Assembly (NCBI RefSeq): GCF_001968825.1
Contig: NZ_MIEU01000011.1
Span: 186,001-250,000 of the forward strand
Source: Tersicoccus sp. Bi-70
GTDB lineage: Bacteria; Actinomycetota; Actinomycetes; Actinomycetales; Micrococcaceae
Direction: 5' to 3'
DNA length: 64,000 nucleotides
Positions 15,432-22,548 of this stretch are shown in pieces (within the stretch, counting starts at the first letter, position 1; each line of letters starts with the position of its first letter). The notes beneath the pieces are model-generated. The model saw only the letters and a program-made list of their open reading frames with translations. It had not been told where the DNA came from and did no database searches. The position numbers and the translations under genes are program-made.

Positions 15432-16865
15432 TCAGGTGAGGATGCGGTAGGTGCTCCACCCGGATCCGACGAGGATGCGCGGTGCGAACCGGCCACCGAT
15501 CAGCGGGTAGTAGGACAGGCCGCCGTCCACCGCCGTCCGGGCGAGGACACCCGTACTGCCGGCTCCGGCGAAGCCGAACACCACGGAGACGGACGAGATG
15601 CCGTTCCAGCCACGGCCCAGCACGGCCCGGGCTTCCGGCACGAAGCCGCCCGCGCCGTTGCCGCGGTAGAGCAGCAGTAGCCCGTCGGTGCGTTTGGCGA
15701 TGAGGTCCTGGCGGCCGTCCCCGTCGACGTCGACCATGGTCGTGGTCATCGTGCCCCACCCGCGCCCGATCACCGTGCGGGCGCCGAGCCGGTTGCCGAC
15801 GTTCGGGTACTGGTACAGCACCCCGTCCGGGCCGCGGGCGATGATCGACGTCGCGCGTCCGTTGACCCAGGGGCCGGGCGTGATGGCCCATCCGTTCCAG
15901 CCGGTGCCCAGCAGGACTCCCGCGCCGAGGCCCGGCGTCGATCGACCGGGATAGAACCAGAGGGTGCCGTCCGTGTGGCGGCCGATCACGTCGAGCCGGC
16001 CGTCACCGTTCCAGTCGACGACGGCGCCGCTGGTCACGCCGCCCCAGCCGGTGCCGACCGCGACCCGGGCTCCCAGCGTCCCGCGCCCGGTGGCCGGATA
16101 GCTCCAGAGGGTCCCCGCGGGGTCGATCGCGCCGAGGTCGGCCGCCGTCGCGAAGGCGGGACGTGGCGGCGTGCTGAAGTACTGCTCCATGGTCGCGATG
16201 CCGCGGTTGCGCATGTCCGCGGCCAGGGCGGGGCCGACGTAGCGCAGGTGCCACGGCTCCCACGTGTACCCGGTGATCGCGGTGTAGCCGTTCGGGTAGC
16301 GGACGATGAAGCCGTACCGCCACGCGTTCGCGGCGACCCAGCGGCCACCCGGGGTGTTGCCGAAGCAGCTGCCGTCCGCGTTGCCGACGTCCACGGCGAG
16401 TCCGGTCTGGTGCTCGCTGTGCCCGGGGTGCGCGGAGATCGTCTCGGCGTACGCCAGGCCGTACTGGTTGACGTAGCTGGCGAACAGGGCGGCCTGCTGG
16501 TCGTAGGAGCGGTAGGCGCTGACCGTTGCCAGGGGCGACCCGGCCGCGGCCGCGCCGGCGTAGAGCCGACCGAGGGCGGACGAGGTGACCGACCGCATCT
16601 GGTGACCGCCGGGACCCCACACCAGGTCCGGCGGCACGTAGCGCAGCGGGTTGAGCGGCCGCTGCTTGTTCACCAGCACCTGCACGTTGGTCGGGTCGCT
16701 GATCGGCGTGGCCGCGACGGCACCGCCGATGCCGACCAGCTGCAGGGCCGCGACGACCACGGCGACGAGCGCCGCGAGACGACGCGGCGCGACGGCGGAC
16801 CAGCGGCGGCGCCCCACGGCCGCCGGGTTCGAGGAACAAGGGAGAAGGTGGTCAGCAGCGACCAT
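15432..16865 (-). CDS. secreted VanY-type D,D-carboxypeptidase with FG-GAP repeats
   Basis: 477-aa exported peptidase that would trim D-Ala from peptidoglycan peptides. A signal peptide (RRLAALVAVVVAALQLVGIGGAVAA, about 28-52, given here as a region) is followed by a VanY domain with zinc and catalytic motifs SAYRSYDQQA, SEHQTGLAVDVG and EPWHLRYVG. Residues about 250-477 contain FG-GAP/VCBS-type beta-propeller repeats (DWNGDGRLDVIGR, DVDGDGRQDLIAK), likely for binding or calcium. The 16865 ATG has GAGG 7 nt upstream; a GTG at 16817 would also give a signal peptide. Confidence 0.9.
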   Translation of the reverse strand: MVAADHLLPCSSNPAAVGRRRWSAVAPRRLAALVAVVVAALQLVGIGGAVAATPISDPTNVQVLVNKQRPLNPLRYVPPDLVWGPGGHQMRSVTSSALGRLYAGAAAAGSPLATVSAYRSYDQQAALFASYVNQYGLAYAETISAHPGHSEHQTGLAVDVGNADGSCFGNTPGGRWVAANAWRYGFIVRYPNGYTAITGYTWEPWHLRYVGPALAADMRNRGIATMEQYFSTPPRPAFATAADLGAIDPAGTLWSYPATGRGTLGARVAVGTGWGGVTSGAVVDWNGDGRLDVIGRHTDGTLWFYPGRSTPGLGAGVLLGTGWNGWAITPGPWVNGRATSIIARGPDGVLYQYPNVGNRLGARTVIGRGWGTMTTTMVDVDGDGRQDLIAKRTDGLLLLYRGNGAGGFVPEARAVLGRGWNGISSVSVVFGFAGAGSTGVLARTAVDGGLSYYPLIGGRFAPRILVGSGWSTYRILT

Positions 16866-17377: not shown

Positions 17378-18325
17378 ATGGCCACCACGACGATCACGGA
17401 CGAGCTGGTCACGGCGCTGACCGCGGCCGTGACGGTGGCGACCGGCCGTGCGGCGCGCCTGGACCCCGGCTGGCGTCCGCCGGTGCAGGGCGCCGTCGGC
17501 CATCTGCTCGGCATGCGCCTCGAGGCCGAGCACGCTCCCCTCGTCGTCAAGCTCTTCCCGCCGGCCGCCCGGGACCGGGCGGTCACCGAGGCCCGAGCGA
17601 TCGCGACCGCAGGCCTGCCGGGCGGCATCGTGCCCCGGGTCCGTACCGAGGGCCGGTTGCCCGGCGGCACGTCCTTCCTCCTCATGAGCCGACTGCCCGG
17701 GGACCGCTGGGCGGACCGGCGACCCGCCCTGACGACGGCGGAGCGCGCGAGTGTGGTCGCGCAGGTCGGCGTGCTCGCCCGTCGGTTGCACGCCGTGACC
17801 GACGACCGCTTCGGCCCGTTCGCAGGCGGGGGTGGTGTCCACCCGTCGCTGACCGACTGGACCCGGGCCCTGGTGGAGGGGACGGTCGCGACGTTCCGGG
17901 CCGCCGGCGGCCCGGACGACCTGGCATCCGGTGTCGAACGGCTGGCGGCGGCGACCGTTCTGGACGACGCGGTGCCGCCGGCGTTCTGCCATCAGGATCT
18001 GAACGGCGGCAACATCCTGCTGAGCAGTGATCCCGGAGGACCTCCCCGGATCAGCGGAGTCGTGGACTTCGAGCGCGCCGAGTGGGCGGACCCGGTCCAC
18101 GACCTGGCGCTGACGGTGATCCACCTGATGCACGAGGGCGAGGAGGGCCTCGTGTCGACGCTGCTCGAGGCGTACGGCGGTCTGGACGACGCCGCGCAGT
18201 CCCGGCTCACCCTGCACGTGGTGCTGCGGATGGCGTCCGAGTGGGCCTGGGTGATCACCGACCGGCCCGCCGACTGGAGGCCCAAGACCGCGACCCTGGC
18301 CGCCTGGATCGGCGACCGGACCTGA
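17378..18325 (+). CDS. aminoglycoside phosphotransferase-like kinase
   Basis: 315-aa kinase-fold protein unrelated in detail to the one at 11428. The catalytic loop is CHQDLNGGNILL (about 205-216) and the metal site VVDFERAEWADPVHDLAL follows. ATP-dependent phosphorylation of a small molecule is expected; some relatives are fructosamine or macrolide kinases. The hairpin-free 2-bp gap to the convergent repeat-protein gene means the two transcripts must overlap or end inside each other. Confidence 0.82.
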   Translation: MATTTITDELVTALTAAVTVATGRAARLDPGWRPPVQGAVGHLLGMRLEAEHAPLVVKLFPPAARDRAVTEARAIATAGLPGGIVPRVRTEGRLPGGTSFLLMSRLPGDRWADRRPALTTAERASVVAQVGVLARRLHAVTDDRFGPFAGGGGVHPSLTDWTRALVEGTVATFRAAGGPDDLASGVERLAAATVLDDAVPPAFCHQDLNGGNILLSSDPGGPPRISGVVDFERAEWADPVHDLALTVIHLMHEGEEGLVSTLLEAYGGLDDAAQSRLTLHVVLRMASEWAWVITDRPADWRPKTATLAAWIGDRT

Positions 18326-18327
18326 GG

Positions 18328-18657
18328 TCAGTGCCGGCGCCGCCGGGCCCGCAGGAGCAGGGCGGCCGGAATCGCCGCGAGGCCGGCGAGGACGAGCACC
18401 GGCATCCCGTTGATGACGCCGATGCCGCCGAAGCTGTTGATCGACGCGACCGACCCGACCGACCCGATGGACGCGATCGAGCCGGTGGAGCCGATCGATG
18501 CGACGGATCCGATCGAGGCGACCGAGCCGATGGAGCCGATCGATGCGATGGACCCGATGGAGCCTGCCGAGGCGATGGACCCGATGGAGCCTGCTGAGGC
18601 GATGGACCCGGCGGAGCCCAGGGAGGCGAGTGATCCCGTCGAGGCGGAGGTGGTCAT
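18328..18657 (-). CDS. Ser-hydrophobic-Gly/Ala tripeptide-repeat protein with C-terminal membrane anchor
   Basis: 109 aa. After MTTSASTG come about 23 uninterrupted triplets of the form S-[I/V/A/L/T]-[G/A] (SLA SLG SAG SIA SAG SIG and so on) up to about residue 77. A hydrophobic segment follows (MPVLVLAGLAAIPAALLL, about 86-103), then the tail RARRRRH. No signal peptide and no LPxTG motif. The basic tail should stay in the cytoplasm, which places the repeat outside, or the repeat itself may be membrane-embedded because it averages hydrophobic. I know no characterised family like this. An upstream ATG at 18690 would add RRR-containing residues. The gene may be co-transcribed with the Bcr/CflA-type pump upstream (68-bp gap). 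Confidence 0.65.
   Translation of the reverse strand: MTTSASTGSLASLGSAGSIASAGSIGSIASAGSIGSIASIGSIGSVASIGSVASIGSTGSIASIGSVGSVASINSFGGIGVINGMPVLVLAGLAAIPAALLLRARRRRH
18431..18640. repeat. 9-bp/27-bp tandem repeat tract in coding DNA
   Basis: Degenerate 9-bp periodic DNA underlying the tripeptide-repeat protein. The two best copies are 27-bp units at 18545-18571 and 18572-18598, which differ at one base and encode a nine-residue block. Recent unit duplication is the simplest explanation. Confidence 0.85.
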
Positions 18658-18725
18658 GGCTCCATCATGCCGCCGCCGTGCCGAGGTCATGCCATGCCCG
18701 GGGTTGTGCCCGTGCCGTGCCGGCG

Positions 18726-19952
18726 TCAGCGGCTGAGCCGGCGCGCGAGGAACGCGGTGCCGAGGGCGAGGACGGACCACACCGCCATCGAGAGCGCCAT
18801 CGGGACGGCGGTGTGCTGCCCGGCGATGCCCGTCAGCGGGCTGACCAGGCCGCCGAGCACGAACTGCAGCAGGCCGAGCACCGCCGCACCGGCGCCGGCC
18901 AGCCCGGGCACCCGGCTCTGTGCCTGGGCCACCGCGTTGCCCATGATGAAACCGATGGCCGTCTGCCCGATCAGCAGCTGCACCAGGGTCATCCACCCGG
19001 TGATGCCGCTGAGGATGAGTACGAGGCCGACGAGGTTGACGGCCGCCATCACCGTGACGGCGACGCGCAGGATGGCTGCCGGCTCCACGCGATCCACGAG
19101 GCGGGCGTTGATCAGGCCGCCGGCGATGGCGCCGCACGCGTTGACGGCGAACGCCACGGAGTACGCCAGGGCGGAGAAGCCGAGCACGTTCTGGATCACG
19201 AACGAGGACGCGGAGATGTACGAGAAGAGGGAGCCGAACGAGAAGGCGAACGTGAGGGCGTACGCCATGAAGGACCCGTTCCGCATCACCCGCATCGACA
19301 GGCCGAGGACGCTGCGCAGCGCGTGGTGCCGGGCCGCCGGGGGCAGGGTCTCGGGTACCACGACCACCGAGCAGACCAGCATCAGCAGCCCGAAGACGGT
19401 GAGCGCCCAGAACACCGCCTGCCACGGGGCCACCGTCGCGATCACCCCGCCGAGCAGCGGCGCGACCACGGGGGACACCGAGGTGATCGTGGCCAGGATC
19501 GAGTAGAGCTTGGCGGCCTGCCGACCGGTCGCGATGTCCGCGACGATGGCCCGGGCGATGACGACGCCGGCGGCCCCGGCCGCGCCCTGCAGGGCCCGGA
19601 GCGCCATCATCACGCCGATGCTCGGCGCGAAGACGATGAGCACCGAGCAGAGCAGGAAGAGGGCGTTGCCGGCGACGAGCAGCCGGTGGCGACCGAGCAC
19701 GTCCGAGACGGGTCCGATGAAGAACTGGCCGAGGGCCATGCCGACCATGTACGTCGTCAGGGTCAGCTGCACGGCCGAGGCGGAGGTGCCGAACCAGGTG
19801 CTCAACCCCGGCATCGACGCCAGGTACATGTCCGTGGCGAGGGGGCTGACCGCGCTGAGGATCCCGAGCGCACCGATCAGCACCGCGCGATCCCGGCCGC
19901 CAGTCAGACGCAGGCGGGACTGCACGGGCTCGTCGGGGGTCGCGGAGGTCAT
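18726..19952 (-). CDS. Bcr/CflA-type MFS drug efflux transporter
   Basis: 408-aa 12-helix exporter of the DHA1 family. It shows LSPLATDMYLASMPGL-like helix 1 (here AVSPLATDMYLASMPGL), the loop motif GPVSDVLGRHRLLVAG and the motif GAAGAAGVVIARAIVAD of the Bcr/CflA group. Members export bicyclomycin, chloramphenicol or sulfonamides; the actual substrate is unknown. The ATG at 19952 is the first sensible start; an earlier ATG at 20072 codes for basic non-membrane sequence. Confidence 0.9.
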   Translation of the reverse strand: MTSATPDEPVQSRLRLTGGRDRAVLIGALGILSAVSPLATDMYLASMPGLSTWFGTSASAVQLTLTTYMVGMALGQFFIGPVSDVLGRHRLLVAGNALFLLCSVLIVFAPSIGVMMALRALQGAAGAAGVVIARAIVADIATGRQAAKLYSILATITSVSPVVAPLLGGVIATVAPWQAVFWALTVFGLLMLVCSVVVVPETLPPAARHHALRSVLGLSMRVMRNGSFMAYALTFAFSFGSLFSYISASSFVIQNVLGFSALAYSVAFAVNACGAIAGGLINARLVDRVEPAAILRVAVTVMAAVNLVGLVLILSGITGWMTLVQLLIGQTAIGFIMGNAVAQAQSRVPGLAGAGAAVLGLLQFVLGGLVSPLTGIAGQHTAVPMALSMAVWSVLALGTAFLARRLSR

Positions 19953-20182
19953 GGGGTCCTTCGGGCAGGGAGGCGCGTCGCCTCCATCTCTAGCACGCCG
20001 GCCGCGGACCGTGGATGTCCGCGGCACCTCGTGACCGGCCGCACGGCCGCGAGCCTGCTGACGCCTCCCCAAGCGGACAGGGAGGTGGGTGCATCCGGAG
20101 GGGACCCGCGGGCGGTAGCAGGAGTGTCCCGACCCCCTCGGACCGGCTCACGCGCCGGTTCCCTTCTCCCGGAGGAACCACC

Positions 20183-20998
20183 ATGCGCACCACCCTCGCC
20201 GCCGCGGCCGCTCTCGGCCTCGCCACCGTCACCCTCGCCGCCGCGGCTCCCGCCACCGCCGCCGACGGTGACGCCCAGCTCTCCGTCCTGCACGCCGTGC
20301 CCGGCACGACCGTCGACGTCTACGTCGACGGTGCGCTCACGCTCGATGACTTCACCCCCGGCTCCCTGGCCGGGCCGCTACCCGTGCCGGCCGGCTCCCA
20401 TCAGCTGGCGATCACCGCGCCCGACGCCGCGGACGCGTCGTCGCCGATCATCGGACCGGTCGCCGCGGACCTGAAGGCCGGCGGCGACTACACGGCCGTC
20501 GCGCACCTCACCGCCGCCGGCAAGCCCGGGGCGACGTTGTTCACCAACGACACGTCGACGGTGCCCGCCGGTCAGGCGCGGCTCACCGTCCGGCACGTCG
20601 CCGCCGCGCCCGCGGTCGACGTGCTCGCCGGCGGCAAGGCCGTGCTGAGCGGGCTGACCAACCCGAAGGAGGCATCACTCGAAGTGCCCGCGGGAACCGT
20701 CCCGGCGGCCGTCGCGCTCGCCGGCACCACGCAGCCGGTGATCGGGCCGGCGGACCTCGCCCTCGGCGAGGGCACGACGACCGTCGTGTACGCGTGGGGC
20801 TCGGCCGCCGACGGCAACCTCGCGCTGGCGACCCAGACGGTCGGCGGCATGCAGCAGAACCCGAACGGCGTGCCGGCGGGCACGACCGGTGCCGCGGCCG
20901 AACCGAGCCCGGCGCTGGTGGCCGGCGGCATCCTCGGTGTGGCGGCGCTCGGCGGCGCGCTCGTGCTCTCCCGGCGAGCTGCCCGCGCCCGCGCCTGA
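20183..20998 (+). CDS. secreted DUF4397 surface protein
   Basis: 271-aa exported protein with a signal peptide (LAAAAALGLATVTLAAAAPATAA, about residues 5-27, given as a region), two DUF4397 beta-sandwich units (VLHAVPGTTVDVYVDG and VRHVAAAPAVDVLAGG starts) and a C-terminal hydrophobic helix ending SRRAARARA. There is no LPxTG; the sequence ahead of the helix reads NPNGVPAGTTG. The next gene is a class F sortase, so this protein is a likely cell-wall substrate with an atypical sorting signal. Strong GGAGGAA ribosome site; a hairpin terminator follows. Confidence 0.88.
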   Translation: MRTTLAAAAALGLATVTLAAAAPATAADGDAQLSVLHAVPGTTVDVYVDGALTLDDFTPGSLAGPLPVPAGSHQLAITAPDAADASSPIIGPVAADLKAGGDYTAVAHLTAAGKPGATLFTNDTSTVPAGQARLTVRHVAAAPAVDVLAGGKAVLSGLTNPKEASLEVPAGTVPAAVALAGTTQPVIGPADLALGEGTTTVVYAWGSAADGNLALATQTVGGMQQNPNGVPAGTTGAAAEPSPALVAGGILGVAALGGALVLSRRAARARA

Positions 20999-21030
20999 CG
21001 CCCGGCTCCGGTCCGTGACCCATCCCCACG

Positions 21031-21068
21031 ACCCTGCCGGTGCCGTTCCCCCACGGCACCGGCAGGGT
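21031..21068 (+). terminator. strong hairpin terminator after DUF4397 gene
   Basis: Perfect 16-bp stem (ACCCTGCCGGTGCCGT and its complement) with a 6-nt C-rich loop, followed by TCTCCCTCCCC. It ends the DUF4397 transcript and argues against the sortase starting at the GTG at 21015. Confidence 0.85.
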
Positions 21069-21137
21069 TCTCCCTCCCCGTCGAGGGCCCGCGCGTCCAG
21101 GGCCCGTGCGTGGGCCTTCCGCGATGCCCCACGTGCG

Positions 21138-21896
21138 ATGGCGGGCAGCGGCGGGGACCCGCAGGACCGCCCGCTCCCCTCCTTCCTCCCGACCCGCGGC
21201 GCTGCCGCGCTCGCCGTCGCCGGTCTCACCCTGCTCGGATCCGTCTCGGTGGCCGCACTCCCGGCGCCCGAACCGGGCGCGCCCGACGGACTCACCCTCG
21301 CCGCCCCGACGTCGTCGTCCGCCAGCGTGCCGGCACCGGGCCGGCCGACACTCTCGAGCCAGCCGCCGGTCCGGCCGACCGCCGCGCCGCAGTCGCTCGT
21401 CCTCGGCCGCATTCCGGTGGTCCCGGCCGCGCCCCGCCCGCCCCGCGTCACCGCGACGCCGGTCGAAGTGCGCGCCGCCGGCCAGGACCTGGTCCTGCCC
21501 GTCGACCCGATGGGCGTCGACGACCGCGGTGCCCTGGCCATCCCGCGGACACCGGGGCGGATCAGCTGGTACCGGTACGGGCCGGCGCCGGGTGACACGG
21601 CAGGGTCTGCCGTCTTCGCCGGTCACGTCGATGCGCCCTGGGGGAAGACGCCGCTGTACCGGATCAAGGATCTGCGGCCCGGCGACACCGTCGACGTCCT
21701 GCTCAGCAGTGGCCGGGTGCTGCCGTACCGGGTCCGGGCCGTCGACGCCGTCGCGAAGACGCGCCTGAGCGACACCGATCTGTTCCGGCGCGACGGTGCA
21801 CCCGTGCTGCGCCTGGTCACCTGCGGCGGCCCGTGGCTGCCGGACCGGCAGGACTACCGTGACAACGTCGTCGTCACCGCCGAACCCCTCCGGTGA
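21138..21896 (+). CDS. class F sortase
   Basis: 252-aa membrane-anchored transpeptidase that would attach surface proteins to the cell wall. One N-terminal membrane segment (about 21-42), a Pro/Ser-rich linker, then the sortase domain from about 110. The catalytic triad is visible as H163 (FAGHVD), C229 (LVTCGG) and R241 (DYRDNVVV). The ATG at 21138 is used because an upstream GTG lies before the terminator hairpin. The adjacent DUF4397 protein is the probable substrate; sigma and anti-sigma genes follow. Confidence 0.88.
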   Translation: MAGSGGDPQDRPLPSFLPTRGAAALAVAGLTLLGSVSVAALPAPEPGAPDGLTLAAPTSSSASVPAPGRPTLSSQPPVRPTAAPQSLVLGRIPVVPAAPRPPRVTATPVEVRAAGQDLVLPVDPMGVDDRGALAIPRTPGRISWYRYGPAPGDTAGSAVFAGHVDAPWGKTPLYRIKDLRPGDTVDVLLSSGRVLPYRVRAVDAVAKTRLSDTDLFRRDGAPVLRLVTCGGPWLPDRQDYRDNVVVTAEPLR

Positions 21897-21978
21897 GGTC
21901 TTCCGTATACTCGCCCGCAAGCAGGCACGCGTCCGGCCCCGACTGCATGGATCGGGGCGGTCGAGCACGGGAGTCGGC

Positions 21979-22548
21979 ATGACGCACACCGCGCCGGTGT
22001 GGGACGCCGCGGCCGATCCGCGGTTCCGGGAGGGCGACCCGGAGGTGCTCGAGCGTGCGTTCCGGCACTGCGGCGCCGTCGTGCGCGGCCTGGCCCTGCG
22101 CGCGGTCCGCGACCCGCACCTGGCGGACGACGTCGTCCAGGACGTGTTCGTGCGCGCCTGGACCTATCGGGCGAGCTTCGACCCGGAACGGGCTGCTCTG
22201 CCCGCGTGGATCATCGGCATCACCCGCCGCGTGATCGTCGACCGGGCACGGCAGGTGGCCAGCGACCGGGACCGGACGACGGACCTGGACCCCGGGACGG
22301 ACGCCGCCGTGCCGACCGAGGACGAGGTGGAGTCGGCCGTCACGAGGCTCGTGGTCCGCGACGTGCTCGCCACCCTGCCGGACCCGCCGCTCTCCTTCCT
22401 GCACCTCGCCTTCTACGAGGACCTGACCCACCGGCAGATCGCCGACCGCACGGGCGTCCCGCTCGGTACGGTGAAGAGCCACCTGCGCCGGGGGCTGCTC
22501 GACCTGAGACGACGGATGGAGGCGAGCCGTGAATCATCTGGATGGTGA
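21979..22548 (+). CDS. ECF-type RNA polymerase sigma factor (SigK-like)
   Basis: 189-aa ECF sigma factor with region 2 (LADDVVQDVFVRAWTYR, about 50-66) and region 4 (FYEDLTHRQIADRTGVPLGTVKSHLRRGL, about 145-173). It redirects RNA polymerase to a small regulon, likely including this surface-protein locus. A TATACT hexamer at 21906-21911, just behind the sortase stop, may be a promoter. The anti-sigma gene begins inside its last 20 bases, so the pair is translationally coupled. Confidence 0.92.
   Translation: MTHTAPVWDAAADPRFREGDPEVLERAFRHCGAVVRGLALRAVRDPHLADDVVQDVFVRAWTYRASFDPERAALPAWIIGITRRVIVDRARQVASDRDRTTDLDPGTDAAVPTEDEVESAVTRLVVRDVLATLPDPPLSFLHLAFYEDLTHRQIADRTGVPLGTVKSHLRRGLLDLRRRMEASRESSGW

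Follow-up and report, generated by a model that had tools for sequence, protein, structure and literature searches.

A serine-triplet gene in Tersicoccus

Does the run of serine-led triplets read from the minus strand of a Tersicoccus sp. Bi-70 contig belong to a real protein, and what might such a protein do? The question is raised by the open reading frame at positions 18657-18328 of the window, as we call the whole stretch of 64,000 nucleotides that was analyzed. From ATG to stop, it encodes a product of 109 amino acids, MTTSASTGSLASLGSAGSIASAGSIGS...SVASINSFGGIGVINGMPVLVLAGLAAIPAALLLRARRRRH. The locus is organized as follows:

18328..18657, minus strand: coding sequence of the 109-residue Ser-x-x triplet protein (ATG 18657-18655, stop 18330-18328)
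18427..18642, minus strand: residues 6-77, an array of 24 triplets that start with Ser and mostly form nonads S-[IVL]-A S-[IAL]-G S-x-G
18400..18426, minus strand: residues 78-86, GIGVINGMP, a conserved cap that the two congeners share with little or no change and that IGKIGYIGNMP of a further genus in the family matches in part
18352..18402, minus strand: single membrane helix predicted from hydropathy, PVLVLAGLAAIPAALLL (residues 86-102)
18331..18351, minus strand: residues 103-109, RARRRRH, a basic C-terminal tail that holds all the charged residues of the protein
18439..18629, no strand assigned: tandem DNA repeats with 27-, 45- and 18-bp periods beneath the triplets (TRF)

The triplets follow each other in an unbroken series with serine always first, and the third residue is glycine or alanine in 23 of the 24, the exception being SIN. 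An earlier note on this DNA had described about 23 triplets of the form S-[I/V/A/L/T]-[G/A]; the strict run stands, while the count is 24 and SIN departs from the formula. A chance origin of the run is excluded by its score, 24 as opposed to maxima of 4-7 in 20 first-order Markov randomizations of the whole window. The next-highest score within the window, 16, came from another frame of the same DNA. Tandem duplication in the triplet DNA is recent, as had been claimed: on direct reading, a single mismatch separates the 27-mers near 18546 and 18573.

Residues 86-102 are the sole strongly hydrophobic segment of the protein. Among stretches of 19 residues, the most hydrophobic begins at residue 84, with a mean Kyte-Doolittle value of 2.24, and RARRRRH comes after it. 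Because the first charged residue is R103, no N-terminal signal-peptide pattern is present. Hydropathy and charge positions thus bear out the hydrophobic helix, the RARRRRH tail and the absence of a signal peptide reported before. Assignment as an LPXTG cell-wall anchored protein was rejected: helix and tail are present, but the LPXTG motif and a signal peptide are missing. A layout without signal peptide and with one C-terminal membrane helix, predicted in our case, is shared with C-tail-anchored proteins such as ElaB/YqjD (PMC6389858). The likeness is one of layout; there is no family match, and the part preceding the helix in the window protein is the repeat.

Orthologues are present in all three genomes available for the genus, the window genome included. 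Both congeners retain the frame, the triplet phase and the basic tail, traits by which the note had proposed to judge homologues, and also the cap, ASINSFGG-[IL]-GVINGMPVL; the triplets number 24, 23 and 21 in the three genomes. Over the 49 ungapped C-terminal codons of the three congeners, the sense frame has dN values of 0.09-0.12 and dS values of 0.52-0.66, and its dN/dS ratio of about 0.15-0.18, the lowest of all six frames, indicates purifying selection. The only competing antisense frame gave dN 0.13-0.19 and dS 0.24-0.44 for the same codons, and dN exceeded dS in the remaining frames. That this antisense frame is likewise open in 3/3 congeners is what an artefact, be it antisense coding or a repeat that is non-coding, would have in its favor. 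We regard such an artefact as exceedingly improbable in view of the low sense-frame dN/dS, the conserved placement of the promoter and the protein-level conservation throughout the phylum (see below). Hence we conclude from the pattern of substitutions that the minus-strand ORF is a genuine gene; the opposite strand, whose translation in place of this one would have spoken against the note's reading, is not the conserved one.

The repeat unit comprises nine residues

Across family members, the first triplet position is serine in 98% of cases, with substitutes that are almost solely Ala, Cys or Gly, whereas glycine accounts for merely 42% at the third position. Third residues that lie three triplets apart show an identity of 0.56, compared with 0.19-0.25 at lags of 1, 2, 4 and 5. 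They therefore recur every three triplets, giving a nine-residue unit, S-x-[L/A] S-[I/V]-G S-x-[G/N/D]. The window protein fits this family pattern with its 24 triplets, which are mostly nonads of the type SIA-SIG-SxG.

These figures do not support an analogy drawn in the earlier note, that with Gly-X-X polyproline-II bundles such as the snow-flea antifreeze protein. A polyproline-II or collagen-like Gly-X-X bundle, or an antifreeze protein, would share the three-residue periodicity, and the Pfam Collagen model does show sub-threshold similarity to the window protein (12.7 bits, gathering score 27.2). However, serine and not glycine is invariant, the repeat is nearly free of proline, and the real period is nine, with leucine common at one third-position in three. 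We therefore disfavor this reading and rate it as quite improbable.

The three triplets of the unit are not equivalent. When only nonads flanked by Leu/Ala-type triplets were counted, Asn or Asp occupied the last residue of triplet three in 18/202 cases compared with 1 and 0 in the other two triplets, and polar middle residues numbered 43 compared with 10 and 6, these counts not being independent as the members are related. Such a bias in triplet three is what one would expect where a tight turn is exposed, and the gathering of turn-type residues there suggests strands of seven residues separated by turns of two.

Family length falls into a narrow band, with 32 members having 19-28 triplets and one expanded copy having 42. 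The latter (L101, G211:C1:1347066-1347548) stands beside congeners with 21 triplets (L103, L104), so that the number can double within a genus. Together with the 24, 23 and 21 triplets in the genus of the window, this agrees with the note's expectation that length may vary. About 21 of 32 members possess a distinct C-terminal hydrophobic helix, which basic residues follow in most cases, and about one third lack a separate helix; helix and tail are thus frequent among homologues but not universal. Two irregular copies were also seen. One member (L118, G431:C1:1947426-1947754) is split across two frames, likely by a frameshift or sequencing error, and another (L087, G675) contains three in-frame TAG codons and is likely decayed.

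Distribution and database searches

Two profiles were used, the first (A1) built on seven members and the second (A5) on 31. Searches with A1 found relatives all over the phylum, other classes included; profile matches occur in many genera, with E-values as low as 1e-36. With A5 at E <= 1e-10, 80 of 395 class genomes were matched, nearly always with a single copy per genome, and among good class genomes the matches comprised 77/361 genomes and 37/138 genera; these counts are upper estimates, because a few matches are low-complexity tracts. Look-alikes of this kind (SVG, STG and collagen-like tracts, e.g. L005, L060, L064, L084, L091) were left out of the membership, which came to roughly 50. 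Named records of the family come from an Ilumatobacteraceae MAG (L031) and from Streptomyces plasmids, one of which labels its copy 'hypothetical protein'. In the large-genome genus g57, the first 96 residues of one copy (G495) are 92% identical to a Streptomyces copy. Several copies of this genus lie in the outer chromosome, for example at 9.28 of 9.51 Mb and at 8.31 of 9.17 Mb, which fits an accessory gene.

The repeat taken alone could still reflect convergent low complexity. That L031 and L122 combine the SIASIG style of the window with the widespread SILSIG/SVLSIG style argues for one family. As judged from the profile matches, the window protein is a member of a phylum-wide, usually single-copy actinobacterial family of Ser-x-x repeat proteins. 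Open triplet tracts of 500-750 codons at G279:C3:139890-141482 and G204:C8:42495-44234 resemble the family superficially. The former is of STG/SVG type, the nonad pattern was absent from both where they were read, and they may be repetitive genes read antisense or in a shifted frame. No family match was found in viral contigs, queried with a relative's protein and two DNA patterns, or in phage records.

In Pfam and NCBIfam, no model scored above its own cut-off for the window protein (PF00746, which bears on the LPXTG assignment, reached 14.8 bits with a cut-off of 20). A sequence search of the PDB found no relatives of it and returned chance matches, apparently to linkers. PHROGs gave only weak matches to repetitive unknown and tail-fibre models, PADLOC gave none for the window protein, and in the literature the repeat motif was found in no relevant paper, the one letter match being a chance occurrence in a physics paper. 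The family thus appears to be undescribed in the databases searched, in line with the note's remark that no characterized family of this kind was known. Although up to one fifth of the genomes sampled from a single actinobacterial class carry it, and further classes of the phylum have it as well, family databases have apparently missed it, probably because low-complexity masking hides such repeats.

One sub-threshold match points to a precursor of a ribosomally synthesized, post-translationally modified peptide akin to the His-Xaa-Ser repeat peptides (HxsA), with which the family shares serine at every third residue. The NCBIfam model HxsA4 matches the window protein with 28.7 bits (E 1.8e-6) and matches 6/7 members. 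This score is below the curated cut-off of 55, the His-x-Ser repeat is absent, the window protein having no histidine in its repeat, the genome of the window (G000) lacks an HxsC above cut-off, and no radical-SAM gene was found among the neighbors scanned. An HxsA-like precursor is accordingly very improbable.

A conserved promoter position predicts a leaderless mRNA

Immediately upstream of the gene lies a further element:

18664..18669, minus strand: putative -10 promoter hexamer CATGAT, six bases 5' of the ATG, at an offset conserved among relatives (consensus as in PMC3160421 and PMC3898074)

A TANNNT signal about 12 bp upstream of the start codon marks leaderless genes, which are estimated to make up a mean of 19% of actinobacterial genes (Zheng et al., PMC3160421). 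In Mycobacterium tuberculosis, of the genes that have a primary start site, 26% are leaderless; mRNAs of this class become more abundant under starvation and are underrepresented for growth functions (Cortes et al., PMC3898074). In a first set, in which start codons had been picked by eye, xANNNT occurred at exactly the CATGAT offset in 20 of 30 family members (window included) and 0-2 times at each of the other offsets tested. Because of this manner of choosing starts, the test was redone by a fixed rule, the start being the last ATG before the repeat, on 19 relatives outside the first set. The motif was found at the same offset in 12/19, one base further in 4/19, and 0-2 times elsewhere. The position of CATGAT six bases before the ATG and the recurrence of this offset predict a leaderless mRNA from this strand that starts at the A of the ATG. 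By this measure, the family is unusually consistent in bearing a leaderless-type promoter, read from the strand of the gene.

Predicted fold and possible role

With a two-sequence alignment, AlphaFold modelled the repeat of the window protein without structure (pLDDT 40). For the Ilumatobacteraceae relative L031, likewise with two sequences, it placed strands at residues 23-29, 32-38, 41-47, 50-56, 59-65 and so on at low confidence (pLDDT about 43), mostly seven residues long and spaced by nine (7 + 2). This agreement with the turn statistics is a hint but no proof of a strand-and-turn arrangement. Of the conformations proposed in the earlier note, the beta-stacked alternative fits better than polyproline-II, although it is unproven. 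Foldseek with the weak L031 model gave insignificant matches throughout (E >= 1.3), among them the beta-solenoids AlbG, bactofilin and LpxD (E >= 6). Bactofilins, pentapeptide-repeat proteins (AlbG) and LpxD-type proteins are short-period beta-solenoids whose repeats differ from Ser-x-x and give no sequence match. The nonapeptide beta-roll of RTX proteins (review PMC3034196) has in common with the family a nine-residue repeat and glycine-type turns, the strand-plus-turn form being conjectural for the latter. RTX repeats are Gly/Asp-rich, calcium-binding and type I secreted, whereas the Ser-x-x repeat is made of serine and aliphatic residues, has no Asp motif and precedes a C-terminal helix. 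RTX membership was rejected, as the window protein lacks the calcium motif GGxGxDxUx and a Pfam match.

The explanation that we tentatively place first is that of a membrane-tethered, self-associating beta scaffold or coat made from the predicted leaderless mRNA. Each nine-residue unit would form a seven-residue beta strand closed by a two-residue turn; seven to nine units would stack into a compact beta-solenoid-like rod, which might self-associate via its serine and aliphatic faces and be anchored in the cytoplasmic membrane by the C-terminal helix. That the protein works as a small scaffold or coat assembling itself at the membrane, and is made chiefly in slow-growing or stressed cells, is a guess from the architecture, the leaderless mRNA class and the patchy, usually single-copy distribution of the gene; the stress-phase part of this guess is speculative. 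The narrower picture of a tail-anchored serine-ladder beta-solenoid with nine-residue rungs, expressed from a conserved leaderless promoter and polymerizing into a membrane filament or coat in Actinomycetota, which would make a new structural class among bacterial repeat proteins, is rather doubtful. Against a beta rod counts that in/out alternation of S-x-x in a strand is not clean, residues 2 and 3 both being hydrophobic. The topology of the repeat is ambiguous, outside by the positive-inside rule and inside by tail-anchor logic.

The absence of confident structure from the models, together with the fixed spacing of serine as the most invariant residue, would also be expected of an intrinsically disordered, serine-rich, membrane-tethered tail, whose S-x-x-S spacing would serve as a track for processive phosphorylation or O-glycosylation with no fold. 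We consider this unlikely. Serine is exchanged almost exclusively for Ala, Cys or Gly, as at a packing position, the other residues are strongly aliphatic, unlike those of disordered tracts, a phospho-track needs neither a nine-residue order nor lengths confined to a narrow band, and neither a kinase nor a glycosyltransferase recurs beside the genes scanned.

The charge-free stretch of 102 residues could instead lie in or on the bilayer, as a pore, a small transporter regulator or a self-toxin. Repeat hydropathy, which reaches about 1.3-2.1 in the top-scoring stretches of 19 residues in relatives that lack the helix, is moderate and compatible with this but borderline, and transporters (MFS, SSF, Na/H exchanger) adjoin some loci, although neighbors are mostly unrelated. 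Relatives with K, R, D, E or N at regular turn positions of the repeat speak against such a membrane-embedded peptide, as does the lack of a recurrent antitoxin-like partner among the flanking ORFs, and this interpretation, too, seems improbable to us. Should the scaffold or coat indeed assemble at the membrane, it would be a previously unrecognized structural element for a major phylum. Since the pattern is concrete, the length defined, the transcript start predicted and the fold testable, laboratory Streptomyces would allow a direct approach to both structure and role.

Genomic neighborhood

The gene is flanked by the following two genes:

18726..20072, minus strand: Bcr/CflA-type MFS transporter, upstream neighbor (ORF limits; the true start may be internal)
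17378..18325, plus strand: APH/phosphotransferase-like protein, convergent neighbor

The MFS gene is adjacent in one congener (G002) and about 1.5 kb away in the other (G001), and the family as a whole does not keep it as a partner. In G001 the APH gene is present; none was found close to the Ser-x-x gene of G002. Partial synteny at the G001 locus extends over VanY, DUF1905, APH, the Ser-x-x gene, MFS and DUF4397, with about 1.5 kb inserted before MFS. All-against-all comparison of flanking ORFs revealed no conserved partner beyond single genera and pointed to no pathway. Pfam families of the neighbors include MFS, SSF, Na/H exchanger, GroEL, Mg-chelatase/ComM-like, arginase, luciferase-like, AMP-binding, trigger factor and others. 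In two species of genus g3, which belongs to the family of the window organism, the Ser-x-x gene lies directly 3' of a GroEL/Cpn60 gene (L102, L105).

Elsewhere in the window, positions 15432-16865 (minus strand) encode a VanY-type D-Ala-D-Ala carboxypeptidase fused with FG-GAP repeats. The plus-strand region 20015-22548 begins with a DUF4397 protein that has a terminal hydrophobic helix and a basic tail, followed by an ORF at 20889-21896 that by eye looks like a class E/F-type sortase and by a sigma-factor-like ORF at 21796-22548.
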